Assembly (NCBI RefSeq): GCF_021389935.1
Contig: NZ_CP089979.1
Location: 4,569,001 to 4,633,000 of the forward strand
Reading direction: 5' to 3'
Source: Fulvivirga ligni
Lineage (GTDB): Bacteria; Bacteroidota; Bacteroidia; Cytophagales; Cyclobacteriaceae
DNA: 64,000 bases
The translations under genes were made by a program, and so were the position numbers. The notes under the pieces were generated by a model. The model saw only the letters and a program-made list of their open reading frames with translations, made no database searches and was not told where the DNA came from. Numbering within the stretch: the first letter of the stretch is position 1; every line of letters begins with the position of its first letter. Shown here in pieces: positions 14,608-22,752 of this stretch.

Positions 14608-17199
14608 ATGAAACAACTTAAACATTTTACTTTAATCACTTTGCTGCTGCTATCCATGTTCAGTGTGGGTATAGCACAGCAAAAGGATGACCCTAAAGGT
14701 CTTGGCAAGACCGCTTCATTCACGCAAGTGTTGAAGCAAAAGATCGCCACCAAACAGGGCATTAATCAGCGCTCTGAAGCTGCCTCAATTACAGTATCAA
14801 CACCTGATGCCGGTGAGGTAACGCTTAATATTAAGTACAATGCTTTGAAAGGAACTGACCTCACATTAGTGGGTGAAGCCAATGGAAAAGCTGAAAATAG
14901 CTTCTTTATTAAATCCGAAGGTTCTGCTTTAAAAGGGAATATTATTCTGAAAGATCAAAACAAGGCCTATGAATATTATTCTGATGCTGAGGGCAATGCC
15001 TACATAAAAGAGAAGCGTATGGATAAGGTAATGTGCGTAGAATACGCTGCCCTATCTCCTATGAAAATCAAAGAAGCTGCAAAATCAGCAGCTCCAACCG
15101 AAGTAGCTGAAGCACCTAACAACCTGCAAAGTTTACCTGGTGCAGAAGCCGTAGTATTGTTGGATTTTGATGGTTATCAGCTTCCTTCCGGTACAGGCTG
15201 GTTAAATGGTAACTCCTGGTATGCTCCCGCTTCAGGTATGTCTGACTCACAAATCACAGAGGCTTGGGAACTGATCAGTGAAGATTATCGCCCTTATAAT
15301 GTAAACATCACTACAAGTCAGTCGGTATTTGACTCTTACCCTATGGGCAGAAGAGTGAGATGTGTATTCACTCCGGCTAATGATCCTGCTCCTGGAGCGG
15401 GTGGTGTGGCCTATGTGGGTGCTTTTGGTTATAATGACTGGCCTTGCTGGGTGTTCATGATGGATGGAAAAGTAGGTGGTGAGGCTGCCTCTCATGAAAT
15501 AGGCCACACAGTTGGTTTAGGCCATGATGGTAGAACCAATCCTAATGAAGGCTACTTTTTAGGCCATGGAGATTGGGCACCAATTATGGGTGCTGGTTAT
15601 TATAAGCCTATCTCTCAATGGAGCAGAGGTGAGTACGCTTACGCCAACAATCAGGAAGATGATCTTTCAATCATGCAGCAGTATATCCAAAGAAGAGGAG
15701 ATGACCATGGTAATAACTTTGCCGGCTCTACTTTCATGGATAAAGATGGCGCAGGTAATGTAGCCACTCAATATGGTGTAATAAGCACTACGGGTGATGT
15801 AGATATGTTCAGATTCACCTGTGGTACAGGAAACGTATCTCTGGATATCAACACAGTTGGCAGACATGGTGACTTAGATGTATTAGTTAACCTTTATGAA
15901 GGCTCAACAGGCAACCTGATAGGGGTCTTTAATGGTGGTGGTTTGAACACTCACCTAGATGCCTACCTTGATGCAGGCACTTATTATTTAGGAGTAGATG
16001 GAACCGGAGCTGGTGACCCTGCAACTAATGGCTACACTGATTACGCATCATTAGGCAGCTTCTGGATTACAGGCGTTATCCCTGCTGGCGGTGGCGGCGG
16101 AGGTGGTGACTACCTTTCATGGGAAGCTCACAACCAGCCAGGTAAAATCATAAGACATGCAGGAAACAGAGGCAGAATAGATAGCAATGTATCTCCAGCA
16201 GCTGATGGCAACTGGAAAATGGTACCAGGACTTGCCGGTGCAGGTGTATCTTTCGAATCAACAAACTTTCCAGGCAGGTTCCTAAGACATAGAGGTGGTG
16301 AAATATGGTTAGATAATAATGATGGTTCACAATTATTTAAGGAAGATGCTACCTTCTTTGCCAGAGCAGGATTAGCGGATGGCAACAAATATTCGTTTGA
16401 GTCATACAACTTCCCAGGTAGATTTATCAGACATAGAAACTCACAATTATTTAACGAGTCAATCACCAATGATTTAGGAAGAAGTGACGCTACTTTTGCT
16501 AAACTCGGCAATGGCAATCTTCCAGGAGGAAGTTCTTCATTTACTATCGAAGCTGAAAACTTCACCTCCATGTCAGGTGTACAAACTGAAGGTTGTTCCG
16601 AAGGAGGCAGCAATGTAGGCTGGATAGATAATGGTGACTGGATGTCTTATGCCAACATCAATTTTGCATCAACTGGCAGATATTTGATTGAATACAGAGT
16701 GGCCACTCCAAATGCCGGAGGAGTACTTTCTGCTGACTTAGATGCTGGTGCTAATGTCTTAGGTACCATAAACATCCCTAACACAGGCGGCTGGCAGTCA
16801 TGGACTACTGTTTCTCATACTGTGAATGTGAATGCTGGTACTTACCCGTTTGGAATTTATGCTCAAGCAGGTGGCTGGAATATTAACTGGATCAAAGTAA
16901 GCTATCAAGGAGCAGCGGCCGCACAGGCTCAAAGCACTCCTGCCCTTGCTGAAGCTGCTTTATTAACTCAGGATGACTTCAACCTCTACCCTAACCCAGC
17001 CTCTCAAAGTATAAAAATTGGTTTCGCTAATGGTACAGCCGAAATAAAGGTGATGAATGCACTAGGTCATGAAGTGATTGCTGCTTCATCAGTGGAGCCT
17101 AACAGTGAGATCAATATATCTAATCTGAAAAGAGGTATCTACTTCATTCAGATTAAAAAGGATGACGTTTCAAAGGTAAAACGATTTATCAAGGAGTAA
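14608..17199 (+). CDS. Metzincin-type zinc protease with AbfB-like, CBM6 and T9SS sorting domains
   Basis: Signal peptide 1-23, then a propeptide-like region to about 170. The catalytic domain (about 175-385) has HEIGHTVGLGH (ligands H296, H300, H306; base E297) and a Met-turn in WAPIMGAGYY, which define a reprolysin-like metzincin. A bacterial pre-peptidase C-terminal-like beta-domain follows (395-495), then a glycine linker and an AbfB/CBM42-like trefoil (505-640, with repeated FPGRFLRHR and FPGRFIRHR), CBM6 (644-767) and a type A sorting domain (790-863, LYPNPAS). The catalytic half is a paralog of the next gene. Sugar-binding modules on a protease point to glycoprotein or cell-wall protein substrates. 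Confidence 0.85.
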   Translation: MKQLKHFTLITLLLLSMFSVGIAQQKDDPKGLGKTASFTQVLKQKIATKQGINQRSEAASITVSTPDAGEVTLNIKYNALKGTDLTLVGEANGKAENSFFIKSEGSALKGNIILKDQNKAYEYYSDAEGNAYIKEKRMDKVMCVEYAALSPMKIKEAAKSAAPTEVAEAPNNLQSLPGAEAVVLLDFDGYQLPSGTGWLNGNSWYAPASGMSDSQITEAWELISEDYRPYNVNITTSQSVFDSYPMGRRVRCVFTPANDPAPGAGGVAYVGAFGYNDWPCWVFMMDGKVGGEAASHEIGHTVGLGHDGRTNPNEGYFLGHGDWAPIMGAGYYKPISQWSRGEYAYANNQEDDLSIMQQYIQRRGDDHGNNFAGSTFMDKDGAGNVATQYGVISTTGDVDMFRFTCGTGNVSLDINTVGRHGDLDVLVNLYEGSTGNLIGVFNGGGLNTHLDAYLDAGTYYLGVDGTGAGDPATNGYTDYASLGSFWITGVIPAGGGGGGGDYLSWEAHNQPGKIIRHAGNRGRIDSNVSPAADGNWKMVPGLAGAGVSFESTNFPGRFLRHRGGEIWLDNNDGSQLFKEDATFFARAGLADGNKYSFESYNFPGRFIRHRNSQLFNESITNDLGRSDATFAKLGNGNLPGGSSSFTIEAENFTSMSGVQTEGCSEGGSNVGWIDNGDWMSYANINFASTGRYLIEYRVATPNAGGVLSADLDAGANVLGTINIPNTGGWQSWTTVSHTVNVNAGTYPFGIYAQAGGWNINWIKVSYQGAAAAQAQSTPALAEAALLTQDDFNLYPNPASQSIKIGFANGTAEIKVMNALGHEVIAASSVEPNSEINISNLKRGIYFIQIKKDDVSKVKRFIKE

Positions 17200-17288
17200 T
17201 CACATCTCATGAAAACGACTAAATATCTGATATTATTGTCTTTCATCGAAGGTATGATTATAGATATCATTACTTAGAATTATTTTTC

Positions 17289-17325
17289 GGGGATTATCTC
17301 GTGATGAGGTAATCCCTTTTTTTAA
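17289..17325 (+). terminator. Intrinsic terminator
   Basis: GGGATTATCTC pairs with GAGGTAATCCC (one T-G pair), followed by TTTTTTT. Confidence 0.85.
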
Positions 17326-17349
17326 TTATAAACCTAAACCCAATTTATT

Positions 17350-19761
17350 ATGAGACACATTTCTCAAATGTTATGTTTTTGTCTTGTATGTGGCCTTTTT
17401 TCGGTCACCTACGGACAGGATGGGCTCCGTTTAGGGTCCGTTTCAACTTTTAAAGATCAGCTGAAGAGCAAGGTTGATCGCTCCAAAACCCTTAACCAGC
17501 GCACATCTGGTACCACTATCGATGCACAGCTACCTGACAATTCAACTTTACAGCTTCAGGTAAGCTATGAGAATGTTTCAAAAGAAGACCTCACTTTAGT
17601 AGGTAAGGTAGGAAACATTGAAAAGAGTAGCTTCTTTATTAAAGTGAATAATGGTGTAGTTAAAGGTAATATCGTTATTGACGGTCAAAAAAATGCCTTT
17701 GAATATACCTCAAAAGGCGGCGAGGTTTTTATCGAAGAGAAAAGAGCTGACCGTGTGGTATGTATTGAATATCCTAATGGTCCTGCTAATGCAGTTCCTA
17801 CCAATGTAGAAGTTCAGGATTTTGAAATTGGCGAAGCTGCTAACAATCTACAAAGTCTTCCAGGAGCTAATGCTTGTATTCTGTTGGATTTTGATGGTTA
17901 TAACCTACCTGCCGGTACAGGTTGGTTAAATGGAAACAGCTGGACTGCACCTGCTTCAGGTATGTCTGATGCTGCCATTACAGAAGCCTGGGAGCTTGTG
18001 GCTGAAGATTTCCGTCCATACAATGTGAATGTTACCACCAGCCAATCTGTTTACAATTCTTATGCTCAAAATAGAAGACAAAGATGCGTATTCACACCGG
18101 CTAATGACCCTGCTCCGGGTGCAGGTGGTGTTGCCTATGTAGGTGCATTTGGTTATAACGAATGGCCATGCTGGGTATTCATCATGTCAGGTAAAGCCGG
18201 AGGAGATGCTGCTTCTCACGAAGTAGGTCACACGCTAGGACTAGGTCATGATGGTAGAACTAACCCTAACGAAGGATATTTCTTAGGTCATGGAGACTGG
18301 GCTCCGATTATGGGAGCAGGTTATTACAAGCCTATCGCTCAGTGGAGTCAGGGTGAGTATGCCTACGCTAATAACACTGAGAACGATACTCAAAAAATGA
18401 CTGACTATATCAGCTTCAGAGGTGATGACTACGGAAATAACACAGGATCTGCCGCCGCTCTTAGCGTAAACGGATCAGGAGTAGTAGCTCAAAAAGCTGG
18501 TGTAATTGAAAGAAGAGGCGATTATGATATGTTCTCTTTCAACTGTGGTACTGGTAATATCTCATTAGATGTAAACACCGTAAGCAGACATGCCAACCTT
18601 GATATTCTGGTAAACCTTTATGAAGGCAGTGGTAACCTTATCGGTACCTTCAACCCTAGCGGCCTTAATACGCATATTGACGCCTATTTGAATGCTGGCA
18701 AGTACTATATCAGAGTTGACGGAACCGGAGCTGGAAATCCTGCTACAAACGGATATTCTGACTATGGTTCTTTAGGTAGTTACTGGATCACTGGTAATGT
18801 AACTCCTGGCGGTAACAACAATGCGGTAGCCACAGTATATCAGCACTGTAACTACGGTGGATACTCTGCAGGTCTTGGTGTAGGAAGCTACAACCTGGGT
18901 GATCTTCAAGCACTTGGTGTAATAAATGATGATGTATCATCTATTCAGATTCAGGCAGGATATCAGGCCACTTTCTATTGGGATGCTAACTTCACAGGAA
19001 GCACACTGGTAAAATCAGGAAATGATGCATGTTTAGTAGATGATGGTTGGAATGACCAAATCACTTCAATAGTGATCTCTGCTGCCGCAAGTAGCAACAC
19101 TATTCAAGCTGAAAGCTATTCTTCCATGTCTGGTGTACAGGTAGAAGCTTGCAGTGAAGGTGGAGAAAATGTAGGTTATATCGAAGCTGGAGATTGGATG
19201 GCTTATGACAACATCACCTTCCCTAACAGCGGTACTTACCTTATTGAATACAGAGTAGCTAGCCAACCAGGTGGCGGACAATTATCTGCTGACTTAAACG
19301 CTGGCGCTAATGTTTTAGGTACTTTAAATATTCCTAACACAGGTGGATGGCAAAACTGGAGCACCATTTCTCATTCTGTATCAGTAAATGCAGGTACATA
19401 TCCGTTTGGAATTTATGCTGCTGCCGGTGGATGGAATATCAACTGGATCAAAATCACCTATCAGGGAGCGGGAGCACCTGCTGCACAAGCTCGTACAGGT
19501 AATTTTGAAATGTCCACTGCTATGGATAGCAATACTGAAATGGTTCTATACCCTAATCCTTCTGAAAATGAATTACATATCAGATTTCAGGGAGAGCAAA
19601 TAAAAGGTAGTATATTAAATACTATGGGTCAGATCATCCAAAAGTATACCTTGAAAGATGCTTCTGAAACAATAGATATTTCTGGTTTGAAAGCTGGAAC
19701 ATACCTCTTAAGCATAGAGTCTAATGACAACAAAGTCATGAAGAGATTCATTAAGAAGTAA
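17350..19761 (+). CDS. Metzincin-type zinc protease with beta/gamma-crystallin-like and CBM6 modules, T9SS sorted
   Basis: Paralog of the preceding protease through its propeptide, catalytic and beta-domain regions. HEVGHTLGLGH (H290, H294, H300) and WAPIMGAGYY mark the metzincin core (about 165-380). The C-terminal accessories differ: in place of the AbfB-like trefoil it has a beta/gamma-crystallin-like domain (492-578, YQHCNYGGYSAGL) very similar to that of the GH18-like protein at 8332. CBM6 (583-705) and a type A sorting domain (725-803, LYPNPSE) follow. This shows accessory-module exchange between a protease and a glycosidase in one cluster. The leader motif AACCTAAACCC lies 8 bases before the start. 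Confidence 0.85.
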   Translation: MRHISQMLCFCLVCGLFSVTYGQDGLRLGSVSTFKDQLKSKVDRSKTLNQRTSGTTIDAQLPDNSTLQLQVSYENVSKEDLTLVGKVGNIEKSSFFIKVNNGVVKGNIVIDGQKNAFEYTSKGGEVFIEEKRADRVVCIEYPNGPANAVPTNVEVQDFEIGEAANNLQSLPGANACILLDFDGYNLPAGTGWLNGNSWTAPASGMSDAAITEAWELVAEDFRPYNVNVTTSQSVYNSYAQNRRQRCVFTPANDPAPGAGGVAYVGAFGYNEWPCWVFIMSGKAGGDAASHEVGHTLGLGHDGRTNPNEGYFLGHGDWAPIMGAGYYKPIAQWSQGEYAYANNTENDTQKMTDYISFRGDDYGNNTGSAAALSVNGSGVVAQKAGVIERRGDYDMFSFNCGTGNISLDVNTVSRHANLDILVNLYEGSGNLIGTFNPSGLNTHIDAYLNAGKYYIRVDGTGAGNPATNGYSDYGSLGSYWITGNVTPGGNNNAVATVYQHCNYGGYSAGLGVGSYNLGDLQALGVINDDVSSIQIQAGYQATFYWDANFTGSTLVKSGNDACLVDDGWNDQITSIVISAAASSNTIQAESYSSMSGVQVEACSEGGENVGYIEAGDWMAYDNITFPNSGTYLIEYRVASQPGGGQLSADLNAGANVLGTLNIPNTGGWQNWSTISHSVSVNAGTYPFGIYAAAGGWNINWIKITYQGAGAPAAQARTGNFEMSTAMDSNTEMVLYPNPSENELHIRFQGEQIKGSILNTMGQIIQKYTLKDASETIDISGLKAGTYLLSIESNDNKVMKRFIKK

Positions 19762-19766
19762 GAACA

Positions 19767-19799
19767 AAAAAAGGCTGCCAACTCTGGCAGCCTTTTAAA
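19767..19799. terminator. Bidirectional terminator between convergent genes
   Basis: AAAAGGCTGCCA (19769-19780) and TGGCAGCCTTTT (19785-19796) form a perfect 12-bp stem with A and T runs on either side, serving the plus gene ending 19761 and the minus gene ending 19824. Confidence 0.85.
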
Positions 19800-19823
19800 A
19801 CTAAACAAACAATCACACTATTA

Positions 19824-20591
19824 TTAATTCGGATAGATAGTTCTTACAGCTACTTTATCTCCATTAGTAAACCCATTCCAAGGCAGAATAAAAGAATTCA
19901 TAACTGAGTTAGGGTCACTAGCAGGCGTTCCAGGTATAAATGTACCTTGAGTCTGATCTGTATGATAGAGACCAAAAATATGTCCCATTTCATGTACAAT
20001 GGTAAAAGTTTTATAACCTGCTCCCAAGTAGTTGAACCTGGTATTGATGGTCATAGTATGACCTGGCTGACGGTTAGATCCAGGCAAATAAGCTCTGGCC
20101 ACCCAGTTATCTGCCGAGTAACCTGTAGTAATAATAGTATTAGCATTATTTCTATTAGTTACCACACTCATCCCTAATCTGGTACCGTTAATTGAGTTCC
20201 ACTGATTTACAGCTCTGCGAACCGCGCTTGCCCAACCACTAGGTACTGATCCATCTATGAAGAATTTAATGTTATTAACCACATTATTTCTCACTAGATA
20301 AGGGCCACGATAATGCTCCGTATCCGCCTCAGAAAGAGCATCTTGTGCTACATAGTTTTTAACATCTGCCTTAGAGATGAGAATATCATCATCTATAATA
20401 AACAGATCGTCCTCTTGCTTAATATCCTCCTTATTAAAGCCAGATTTCACAAGAAAATTGATTAACTCATTATCTACGTTTTCCTGAGGCTTTATTTGCT
20501 GTTCTTCTTCAGAACAAGCAAATACGGTAATTAGAATAGATAAGGAAAGAGGCACAATGGTGCCATAAAACTTTTTAAAAAGCTTTGTCAT
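19824..20591 (-). CDS. M57-like (HEIGH-type) metallopeptidase lipoprotein
   Basis: The longer frame to 20636 would translate the leader motif (CACCTAAACCCAATAAAA), so I start at 20591. This gives a 255-residue lipoprotein with its lipidation Cys at 26 (ITVFAC). HEMGHIFGLYH (H200, H204, H210) fits the HExxHxxGxxH zinc site of the dual-action HEIGH peptidase family M57. There is no sorting domain or CBM; it is expected to be anchored in the outer or inner membrane. It is the only minus-strand gene in the first 24 kb and converges on the T9SS cluster. Substrate unknown. Confidence 0.8.
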   Translation of the reverse strand: MTKLFKKFYGTIVPLSLSILITVFACSEEEQQIKPQENVDNELINFLVKSGFNKEDIKQEDDLFIIDDDILISKADVKNYVAQDALSEADTEHYRGPYLVRNNVVNNIKFFIDGSVPSGWASAVRRAVNQWNSINGTRLGMSVVTNRNNANTIITTGYSADNWVARAYLPGSNRQPGHTMTINTRFNYLGAGYKTFTIVHEMGHIFGLYHTDQTQGTFIPGTPASDPNSVMNSFILPWNGFTNGDKVAVRTIYPN

Positions 20592-20788
20592 TTTTATTGG
20601 GTTTAGGTGAATAATAAATGAATGTAAAAAGTACACCTATTAGCCTAATTATACTGTCGGAATCTCAACATGAAGTCACTCAGGTGCTTCAAATAGAGCT
20701 GAGAGACAAAAATCAATCAAGAGAGAATCATAAAACGTTAATTACCAAATGATTACAAAAATCAATAAGATTCATATTGTGTCTAATA

Positions 20789-20860: not shown

Positions 20861-21092
20861 TGATCGCAGAATATAGGTGTGAAGGGTTATAAATTCTTTT
20901 TTAAATAAAACTGCCAGCAGGAACGCATCCTGCCAGACAGTTTATGAACCTGAACGTGAAAAGTTTTTACTTCTACAACTAATCATGATTCAAAGGTATA
21001 CAGGATTCACTTAGTAGGTTAGAGGAAATAGACCCTTTACTAAGGGGATATTTCCCCTTGTTTGAAATGACAAAATAATTCGGCAGGCATTT

Positions 21093-21176
21093 AAAACAGA
21101 AAAGCCCCTTCGGACCTGGTCCTGAAGGAGCTTTCTGTTGTCTATAGTTGGCTTTAATTGATACTAAGGTAATACT
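21093..21176 (+). repeat. Structured hairpin repeat, copy A
   Basis: A long stem beginning ACAGAAAAGC and ending GCTTTCTGT has an inner GGACC/GGTCC stem, then the conserved tail TTGTCTATAGTTGGCTTTAA followed by TTGATACTAAGGTA. Confidence 0.8.
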
Positions 21177-21292
21177 GAATAATTTCTTGTGCCATCCCTA
21201 ATCTATTTGATCCATAACAGGCAGTTGAACTGCTTATATGATCGATAACTTGTTTTGATATTATACTATAAAATTAAATGCATAAACCCATA

Positions 21293-21370
21293 AAAGCAGA
21301 AAACCCCTTCGAACCTGGTTCTGAAGGGGTAATCTGTTGTCTATTGTTGGCTTTAATTAATACTAAGATA
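21293..21370 (+). repeat. Structured hairpin repeat, copy B
   Basis: Same layout as copy A: the core stem CCCCTTC/GAAGGGG has inner GAACC/GGTTC, a compensated change from copy A. The tail reads TTGTCTATTGTTGGCTTTAA and then TTAATACTAAGATA. Confidence 0.8.
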
Positions 21371-21506
21371 TACCTCCGCCTTATCATCACAAATCCTATA
21401 TCTATTCTTAGCAGTATCTACAGTTAAATTACCTTATATGCCGACTAATGATATTTATACCTCGCTTATTATGTGAAATATGTGTATTATTATAAAAAAT
21501 CTTCAT

Positions 21507-22295
21507 ATGAAAACTATTTGCATCATCTTATTCGTCCTAATATCTTTCTCTTCCGGTGCCCAGAGCTATGTGAATAATGTGAAAGACACCCTTGCTGAAA
21601 TTAAAACCTTCTATAATGTCACCATGGCGGAAAAGACCGAGTTTAAGGATTCGTATCCATCAGGTCAGTATTTTTTAATATTAGATGTGGGTGTTGATCA
21701 ATCTAAGCTGAATATAAAAGCCACAGCAGCGGATGGAAGCCCAGTATTGCTCAATGCCTATAATGGTTATTATGGCCTTCATATTACCGACAATCATTTC
21801 TTCACATTAAAATTTGATTATGAAGGTCAACTTCAGCCTTCAGGTTTGTTTGCTAAAATGTATTGGATCACGCCGAGCCTCATTGGCACCACCCTTCCAG
21901 CAGAAGCTAAATTTAAAACCAATAAGGGAGAGTTATCTGCAGCCGAAATATTCGAAGATAAGACGTCACTGTTGGTGACATTAAACACCGATCGAGAGCG
22001 TGACAAAGAAGTAGTGGAAGTAATTAAAAAGCTACAACTAGAATATCCGGAGGTCCAAATCATATTCTATGGTAAATCAGATATAACTGACTTAGAAAGT
22101 TCAGCAGTTGTAATTAGTAGTAGTAACTTTCGCAAATTGTCACCATGGACTGCTATGATAAAAGGTCAACCGGAAATATTTATGATTGACACTGAAGGCA
22201 AGCTGGTCTACAAAAACTCCATTAGTAATAGCAAGCCCATTACTAATGCAGAACTAACGGCCCATTTGGAAGCTCAGCTCATGAAGATGTTATAA
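21507..22295 (+). CDS. Secreted protein of unknown function with possible thioredoxin-like C-terminus
   Basis: Start at 21507, which gives a signal peptide MKTICIILFVLISFSSGAQ; the upstream ATG at 21480 only adds nine residues before it. The protein has about 262 residues. The first part (20-145) is not recognised. The later part (150-255) has beta-alpha spacing, and PEIFMIDTEGKLVYKNSI resembles the end of an AhpC/TlpA thioredoxin fold, but I see no CXXC, so a redox role is not supported. The gene is bracketed by repeat copies A/B upstream and C/D downstream, all in the same orientation. Confidence 0.6.
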   Translation: MKTICIILFVLISFSSGAQSYVNNVKDTLAEIKTFYNVTMAEKTEFKDSYPSGQYFLILDVGVDQSKLNIKATAADGSPVLLNAYNGYYGLHITDNHFFTLKFDYEGQLQPSGLFAKMYWITPSLIGTTLPAEAKFKTNKGELSAAEIFEDKTSLLVTLNTDRERDKEVVEVIKKLQLEYPEVQIIFYGKSDITDLESSAVVISSSNFRKLSPWTAMIKGQPEIFMIDTEGKLVYKNSISNSKPITNAELTAHLEAQLMKML

Positions 22296-22308
22296 TTCAA
22301 AAATAGAC

Positions 22309-22390
22309 TAAAAACAGAAAGCCCCTTCGAACCTAGTTCTGAAGGGGCTTTCTGTTGTCTATAGTTGGCTTTAATTGATACTAATGTAAT
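22309..22390 (+). repeat. Structured hairpin repeat, copy C
   Basis: ACAGAAAGCCCCTTC pairs with GAAGGGGCTTTCTGT (perfect), inner GAAC/GTTC, then the tail TTGTCTATAGTTGGCTTTAA and TTGATACTAATGTA. Confidence 0.85.
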
Positions 22391-22500
22391 AGGCTTAATG
22401 ATTTTTTGAAATCATTTCCAGTTAAAGTGACATTTATGGTCGACGAAATAACAGAAAGTGCCGATAAGTGAACACAACATGTCGTTCATCGACACCTTTA

Positions 22501-22577
22501 AACAACAAAAAGCCCCAATGAACCTAGTCCAATGGGGCTTTTTGTTGTCTATAGTTGGCTTTAATTGATACTAAGGT
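22501..22577 (+). repeat. Structured hairpin repeat, copy D
   Basis: ACAACAAAAAGCCCC pairs with GGGGCTTTTTGTTGT. Relative to copy C the lower stem G-C pair became A-T, and the upper CTTC/GAAG became CAATG/CAATG with partial pairing. The tail is unchanged: TTGTCTATAGTTGGCTTTAA and TTGATACTAAGGTA. Confidence 0.85.
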
Positions 22578-22752
22578 AGTGTTTGCCATTTAAAGTAGAA
22601 ACTAAAGGGCGACGACCTGCAAGTTTTAGCCACGAACTGCATAAAATGGCGATGAGTAACATGAGGATTGTGTTAACGAATTATTAATTCGTTAAACATA
22701 TCGATGGATTAATCAAAAAAATTAATAATATTATACTAAAGTAGAATCATCT

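Follow-up and report, generated by a model that had tools for sequence, protein, structure and literature searches.

A stretch of 64,000 nucleotides (nt) from the genome of Fulvivirga ligni (contig NZ_CP089979.1, positions 4,569,001 to 4,633,000 of the forward strand; hereafter the window) contains four hairpin repeats that almost certainly represent a new family of small RNAs (sRNAs) encoded on the minus strand, here called sRNA1. Computation directly gives the family, its strand, its promoter, its synteny, its upstream boxes and its complementarities to other RNAs. We consider it likely that sRNA1 is a multicopy RNA driven by a LytTR-type regulator, that it pairs with the message of the gliding and secretion motor gene gldK, and that it is titrated by a sponge, sRNA2, made from a sigma54 promoter.

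Anatomy, promoter and distribution of sRNA1

A repeat search of the window finds a single direct-repeat family of 83-nt units in the same orientation (copies A to D, at 21092-21174, 21291-21373, 22309-22391 and 22499-22581), with 73-89% identity to copy A. A first-pass annotation, made from the letters of the window, had described these four hairpins as one repeat, with two copies on either side of an unknown gene; the gene is the open reading frame (ORF) at 21480-22295, and the arrangement is as described. The paired stem changes that it had pointed out are also there, the lower stem CAGA/TCTG of copy C becoming CAAA/TTTG in copy D, and the inner stem GGACC/GGTCC of copy A becoming GAACC/GGTTC in copy B. 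The tail that it had called invariant, TTGTCTATAGTTGGCTTTAA, is exact in three copies and differs at one base in copy B. Allowing up to three mismatches, the tail matches at four places in the window where 0.02 would be expected, a count that 100 shuffles never reached. The conserved block runs on beyond the tail as TTGATACTAAGGTA (plus strand), a point absent from that annotation, because the -7 region of the minus-strand promoter sits there.

Read on the minus strand, each copy goes from tail to hairpin to T-rich run, as had been proposed. The complete layout comprises a TTTG-like box at -33, a TAnnTTTG-like box at -7, the predicted start AAUUAAAGCC, a 17-mer (UAAAGCCAACUAUAGAC), the hairpin and the T-run. 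The predicted transcript of about 60-67 nt thus consists of a conserved unpaired 5' segment, (A)AUUAAAGCCAACUAUAGAC, followed by an intrinsic terminator hairpin whose loop is mostly of the CNAGG type. The hairpin covaries and has a T-run on the same strand, as an intrinsic terminator should. Aligned with MAFFT, 35 copies have 80% of their cells paired (71% after shuffling), 35 cells altered on both sides (17.5 after shuffling) and a covariation score of 0.450 (0.287 after shuffling), and for each of these values none of 500 shuffles is as high; these shuffles ignore kinship, and the structure counted is derived from the same alignment. This alignment holds 35 of 42 non-redundant sequences, leaving out three non-Bacteroidota matches taken as chance (L068, L082 and L120), as well as L030, L109 and the divergent L024:1619 and L026:891. 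The plain number of pairs with double changes does not discriminate, because 117 of 500 shuffles equal the 7 of 8 pairs seen. The departures from Watson-Crick pairing tell the strands apart: among 169 of 192 hairpins (those scoring at least 6, with neither wobble type favoured), a minus-strand reading gives 332 G-T and 50 A-C pairs at the inner non-Watson-Crick positions. The minus strand is therefore the structured RNA strand, and the selection on RNA structure suspected at first pass is supported by this bias and by the covariation score. A pseudoknot between the 5' GCC and the hairpin loop was considered and dropped, the loop reading GGU in Fulvivirga and GGA in other genera. Integron attC and CRISPR-like readings were set aside, given the promoter and the terminator that accompany every copy.

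In the known Bacteroidota promoter consensus, TAnnTTTG at -12 to -5 is accompanied by TTTG near -33 (passages of PMC9723704 and PMC7366714). Among 125 non-redundant copies (less than 60% upstream identity), the -7 box, taken as the best of 12 positions, scores at least 5 of 6 in 107, against 13.3 in shuffles and 9-18 in slid windows, while a -33-like box is found in 76 against 9.4 in shuffles. Both elements of a promoter of its own, as an intergenic sRNA should have, are thus present in most copies, and the suggestion of tandem minus-strand sRNAs ending in terminators is well supported as far as sequence goes.

Upstream of the -33 region there are three direct repeats of approximately nTTnATCG with a 20-nt spacing. 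At least two of the three are found in 77 of the 125 copies (about 1.7 in shuffles, 0-4 at slid positions), and boxes 2 and 3 are centred near -57 relative to the predicted start. The AlgR-type word for LytTR sites is CCGTTCGTC. A LytTR response regulator and a LytS-type kinase (Pfam, own-genome proteins) adjoin the second conserved sRNA1 locus. Because the geometry of the boxes resembles that of LytTR sites and one locus adjoins a LytTR system, we lean towards control of sRNA1 by a LytTR-type response regulator. The promoter of RNAIII in Staphylococcus aureus similarly has direct repeats just upstream, and the promoter-proximal AgrA repeats are centred at about -60 (excerpts of PMC4227749); RNAIII carries a hemolysin gene, whereas sRNA1 is about 60 nt long and multicopy, with a LytTR control that is predicted. 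A run of TTnATC-like boxes with 20-nt spacing also occurs on the minus strand of L284 (window's own genome, C1:1273500-1278500; about 2260-2170 of the locus), where it precedes an apparent protein-coding gene and no sRNA1 copy, and might mark a fellow member of the regulon.

The F. ligni genome, a single contig of 6.52 Mb, has seven sRNA1 copies in total, those outside the window being a pair at 3249109 and 3249285 and a single copy at 1511442; only copy B has an altered 17-mer, CAACAATAGAC. With up to two mismatches the tail is found in 23 of 58 relatives: all 15 of the genus, 7 of the 21 further members of the family and 1 of 22 others in the order. The matches in G026 and G030 (family members) and in G043 have no terminator, a verdict reached by reading the sequences because the T-run test also failed several true copies. 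The 15 same-genus genomes carry 1-13 copies each, many in tandem arrays with a fixed spacing of about 226, 263 or 308 nt. In named genomes, at least 118 stretches with the tail are found; among the 80 titled matches listed, 76 are from Bacteroidota, including many Cyclobacteriaceae/Flammeovirgaceae (Fulvivirga, Chryseolinea, Chryseosolibacter and Ohtaekwangia among them), and four (L068, L073, L082 and L120) are from Clostridia or Bacilli and are taken as chance. A covariance model of the family matches 20 of 291 genomes of the order at E≤0.01, and all ten with E<1e-7 belong to the family of the window. Weaker matches in L287 (G198, 2038-2093) and L289 (G261, 2004-2072) resemble diverged homologues, with UAAAGCCAACUA and UAAAGCCAGCUAU respectively and a terminator; one of the two loci lies in another family of the order, and the RNA family may thus be wider. 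No Rfam 15 family matches the window at the gathering score, nor, at E up to 1, the loci L009, L010 and L351, which carry both RNA families; the first-pass impression that no described family fits has therefore held. Among openly licensed PMC papers we found no published description of sRNA1, and no RNA-seq of Fulvivirga, passages of PMC12565237 included.

Two sites are conserved across many genera. At the family-wide one, thrS-infC-rplT is followed by one or two sRNAs, then (an extracytoplasmic function sigma factor and an outer-membrane barrel protein), a SprB-repeat lipoprotein, YceI, DUF5777 and a sodium:solute symporter (SSF), one representative of each gene family having been named by Pfam. 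This rplT site is ancestral-looking within the family. The second lies between a gene with a carboxypeptidase-regulatory domain and a convergent PfkB kinase gene, and this orientation counts against a cis-acting leader. Copies A to D and the other arrays look like Fulvivirga expansions. The csRNAs of streptococci and the Qrr RNAs of vibrios form sets of near-identical sRNAs that each have a promoter, share the sites of one regulator and pair through a segment that all members have. sRNA1 is like them in forming a redundant set, and differs in phylum, sequence, size and regulator. Another Bacteroidota sRNA, Rfp18 of Flavobacterium psychrophilum, is linked to secreted proteases; it has been conserved within Flavobacterium, its third stem-loop is the part predicted to pair, and it is set apart from sRNA1 by this description only (passages of PMC9723704).

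The gldK leader and a second RNA as pairing partners

The fixed tail had been read at first pass as the mark of a sequence contact, and complementarity now offers two predicted partners for it, the gldK leader and a sigma54-type second RNA. A degenerate search for the complement gives a match about 50 nt upstream of a 357-amino-acid ORF in G005, G006 and G014. This ORF is GldK/PorK (TIGR03525, 449 bits against a cut-off of 350), which belongs to gliding and type IX secretion. The site, GTTGG[CT]TTTA, is present in the gldK leader of 15 of 15 Fulvivirga genomes, 2 of 11 other sRNA-positive genomes and 0 of 22 sRNA-negative ones (48 genomes; G015, G036, G042, G045, G048 and G049, with a gldK match and no locus, are left out). 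Since the site was found through three genomes, the 12 remaining Fulvivirga genomes and the two others that have it, G033 and G263, played no part in its discovery; the leaders of G033 and G263 are otherwise different. In Fulvivirga the predicted duplex between sRNA1 and the leader averages -17.4 kcal/mol, whereas shuffled 5' segments average -6.6 and none of 1000 shuffles is as low. For the other sRNA-positive genomes the two averages are -9.0 and -7.4 (33 of 1000 shuffles as low), and for the sRNA-negative ones -6.3 and -6.9 (838 of 1000). Complementarity to the target leader is thus conserved in Fulvivirga, and pairing of the sRNA1 5' segment with the gldK leader is, on this evidence, very likely.

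In Fulvivirga the gldK site overlaps one arm of a predicted leader hairpin, and pairing should therefore open the leader. When the site is blocked in silico, the mean unpaired probability of positions -25 to +10 rises from 0.50 to 0.61 over 17 leaders, all given the same coding start; it rose in 16 of the 17, the exception being G003. This opening is only a weak hint that sRNA1 would activate rather than repress gldK, because blocking any paired stretch tends to have this effect. Another match, at a wza-like exopolysaccharide operon in G005 and G006, falls within the end of the coding gene that lies upstream, and these two genomes resemble each other. A possible further target is found in L349 (window's own genome, C1:905500-906900), where ACTGTCTATGTTGGCTTTAAG, on the plus strand near 906202, gives a -24 kcal/mol duplex with sRNA1; this site is close to where one ORF ends, and a further ORF begins 90 nt after it.

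A third complement search, with GTTGGYTTTAR, exceeds its reversed control in G000 (50 against 21), G014 (59 against 17) and G010 (33 against 15), an excess to which codon use could contribute. Once sRNA1 copies are removed, 43, 50 and 33 sites are left in G000, G014 and G010, respectively. We read 41 of the 43 sites of G000 (all except gldK and 6509992), 43 of the 50 of G014 (all except gldK and six others) and none from G010; a script assigns these 84 sites as 34 intergenic, 25 sense and 25 antisense. It is through this reading that a second element, sRNA2, was recognised. It consists of a sigma54-like promoter, GGTTAGGTTGA, a GCTGT/ACAG(C/T) stem with the loop UUUUAGUUGGUUUUA, and a terminator. 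The consensus of sigma54 -24/-12 promoters is TGGCA-N-TTG. The sigma54-like promoter is present in all 16 copies of the sRNA2 model, the background of a looser form being 0.022 per 120 nt. Bacteroidota do use sigma54 promoters, which in F. psychrophilum serve gliding and envelope functions (passages of PMC9723704), and the predicted promoter of sRNA2 fits this link with gliding.

The sRNA2 loop is predicted to pair with the sRNA1 17-mer at a mean of -15.4 kcal/mol (shuffles average -8.1, and none of 1000 goes so low), and is kept across copies while the flanks vary, as the conserved complement of a sponge should be. At E≤0.001 the model finds 52 copies in 14 of 15 Fulvivirga genomes and none in 43 other relatives; in the order sample it matches 3 of 291 genomes, all of the same genus. 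Among 21 loci from genomes outside the model, 18 have the anti-seed near their centre, with three provisos: L438, one of the 18, is counted through a neighbouring copy (its own reads AATTGG), L434, counted as a miss, has the anti-seed, and the model (R2) contains the loop, which biases matches toward loop-bearing copies. Most sRNA2 copies in these genomes retain both promoter and loop. In G001, G008 and G014, sRNA2 lies within about 1 kb of sRNA1 copies. From this complementarity and conservation, we find it fairly likely that sRNA2 is a sponge titrating sRNA1. In the RoxS/RosA pair of Bacillus subtilis there are also two stand-alone sRNAs, and the second, which is complementary to the pairing segments of the first, can titrate it. 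In the present case the two RNAs are each multicopy, sRNA2 has a sigma54-type promoter, sRNA1 has LytTR-like boxes and the candidate target concerns gliding and type IX secretion, a comparison made by description only (passages of PMC8216469).

Some further observations concern sRNA2 and its loop. The stretch GGTTAGGTTGA stands out as a second conserved part, for example in L351 (616-744), and the terminator loop (CCUGGUU in some copies) could, judged by eye, pair with the loop region of sRNA1 too. In L373 (window's own genome, C1:5675090-5676490), a terminator-like hairpin on the minus strand near 5675788 has a loop, GTTGGCTTTAATCAAT, complementary to the 5' end of sRNA1, and is a possible further decoy or target.

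Proposed mechanism and competing explanations

A model can be proposed in which each sRNA1 copy would be transcribed on the minus strand from its own Bacteroidota housekeeping promoter, with a LytTR-type response regulator activating it via the phased direct repeats. The 5' segment would then pair with target RNAs without Hfq. A search for Hfq (PF17209) found none in the 15 Fulvivirga genomes, while 5 of 14 control genomes were positive; Bacteroides is likewise described as having no obvious Hfq and ProQ (excerpts of PMC7366714). On gldK (porK), pairing would open the leader hairpin and change the translation or stability of the messenger, and in Fulvivirga the sRNA2 loop would capture the same 5' segment, thereby titrating sRNA1. 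In this model the LytTR control, the pairing of the RNAs inside the cell and the role of sRNA2 as a sponge are deduced from sequence. A more integrated version, in which two antagonistic multicopy RNAs, one controlled by a LytTR-type regulator and the other by sigma54, set the dose of a 17-nt segment that switches the gldK leader hairpin in Hfq-less Bacteroidota, is a tentative proposal, and perhaps not the right one. If it is true, the array copy number of each RNA would tune the set point for each species, environmental sensing would be coupled by RNA to the secretion and gliding machine, and the system would be an example of an Hfq-independent sRNA with an extended seed evolving together with its target and its sponge. 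Little is known of small-RNA regulation in Bacteroidota, and the family is compact, coming, as predicted from sequence, with a clear promoter, a pairing segment, a candidate target and a candidate sponge.

Several points weigh against this model. The gldK site is missing in 9 of the 11 sRNA-positive genomes outside Fulvivirga, and gldK is therefore not the universal target of the family. Taken alone, the genomes outside the genus show no significant contrast in gldK sites (Fisher P 0.10), and those of the 15 Fulvivirga, which form a single clade, are not independent observations. Some of the sRNA-negative genomes, such as G198 and G310 (weak model hits), may hold diverged homologues. In five genomes, two target searches with degenerate 13-letter complements did not clearly exceed their reversed controls, with 65 matches to 65 in one and 35 to 28 in the other. 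The three-box pattern alone is not selective genome-wide in the 15 genomes searched, the copy1 group at the rplT locus is mostly without boxes, and it is by their geometry and one adjacency that the boxes point to LytTR, to no particular LytTR protein. As for sRNA2, the complementarity of its first copies is partly by choice; because the element was found through that complement, conservation of the loop among copies is the stronger evidence. The loop is missing in L454 (window's own genome) and in L455 and L457 (G006). As sRNA2 was found in Fulvivirga alone, a sponge of such sequence is not part of the wider system. Finally, the transcription of sRNA1 in the cell is itself deduced from its promoter and terminator.

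Other readings of the same elements have been weighed. The 5' segment and the CNAGG loop could form the site of an RNA-binding protein, in the manner of a CsrB- or 6S-like decoy, the complements in gldK and sRNA2 then being due to chance or to some other reason. In this respect, the 5' segment is near-invariant family-wide though the gldK site is not, and the CNAGG loop is conserved yet outside the predicted pairing segment. However, both complementarities beat 1000 of 1000 shuffles each, though both partners were found by complement search, and the gldK site recurs in G033 and G263, two other genera, within different leaders; we regard a protein decoy as improbable. It is rather unlikely that sRNA2 is instead a parallel regulatory RNA, with sRNA1 regulating it or both RNAs sharing or splitting targets. 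Its second conserved stretch, GGUUAGGUUGA, could serve as a seed of its own, and sequence does not tell which RNA regulates which, but few parts of sRNA2 are as well conserved as the segment that complements sRNA1, and the two RNAs are near neighbours in the three genomes mentioned above.

The two remaining explanations dispense with a trans-acting RNA altogether. The hairpins have the qualities of a good terminator, copy C and the one at 1511442 sit immediately 3' of genes, and the rplT-locus copies are 5' of a same-strand gene, all of which would suit cis-acting attenuators or plain bidirectional terminators of the neighbouring genes. But a terminator needs neither a conserved 17-mer nor its own promoter, and both at the second locus and in several arrays the gene that follows is encoded on the other strand, which makes this reading very improbable. 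That the repeats are mobile or selfish DNA (repetitive extragenic palindromes, insertion sequence ends or miniature inverted-repeat transposable elements) spread by a transposase that recognises the hairpin as DNA is very unlikely, though no scan for transposases was made: the variable copy number in the genus and the fixed-spacing tandem arrays would agree with it, whereas the synteny kept at two loci across many genera, the copy-specific promoters and boxes, and the G-T rather than A-C departures on one strand would not.

Features of the window and its neighbourhood

The sRNA1 features of the window are collected below. The start of each predicted transcript is set 12 nt past the first base of the -7 box, and its end is approximate.

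Predicted sRNA1 features in the window (positions in the window; the -7 box consensus is TAnnTTTG, from passages of PMC7366714 and PMC9723704)
Feature	Position	Strand	Remarks
sRNA1 copy A	21093..21159	-	predicted transcript; 70.0 bits, copy included in model
sRNA1 copy B	21292..21358	-	predicted transcript; 60.8 bits
sRNA1 copy C	22310..22376	-	predicted transcript; 67.8 bits
sRNA1 copy D	22500..22566	-	predicted transcript; 76.2 bits, copy included in model
Copy A conserved 5' segment UAAAGCCAACUAUAGAC	21140..21156	-	predicted pairing region
Copy B conserved 5' segment, one change	21339..21355	-	predicted pairing region
Copy C conserved 5' segment	22357..22373	-	predicted pairing region
Copy D conserved 5' segment	22547..22563	-	predicted pairing region
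Copy A terminator hairpin	21097..21137	-	
Copy B terminator hairpin	21297..21336	-	
Copy C terminator hairpin	22315..22354	-	
Copy D terminator hairpin	22506..22544	-	
Copy A -7 box TACCTTAG	21164..21171	-	
Copy B -7 box TATCTTAG	21363..21370	-	
Copy C -7 box TACATTAG	22381..22388	-	
Copy D -7 box TACCTTAG	22571..22578	-	
Phased direct-repeat boxes upstream of copy A	21222..21252	-	two boxes (TTnATC-like, 4/5 each), third weak 2/5
Phased boxes upstream of copy B	21421..21451	-	two boxes (4/5 each), third weak 2/5
Phased boxes upstream of copy C	22419..22450	-	two boxes (4/5 each), third weak 2/5
Phased boxes upstream of copy D	22609..22659	-	three boxes (3/5, 3/5, 4/5)

The ORF between the two pairs of copies encodes a predicted protein of 271 amino acids for which Pfam gives nothing at E up to 0.001, and in the arrays L040 and L041 the ORFs in the gaps between copies differ from it in length. 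Beside the sRNA array, secreted metalloprotease-like genes occupy 14608-20636 of the window: the product of 19824-20636 matches Peptidase_M57, and that of 14608-17199 has a type IX secretion sorting domain together with a Reprolysin match just under the cut-off.

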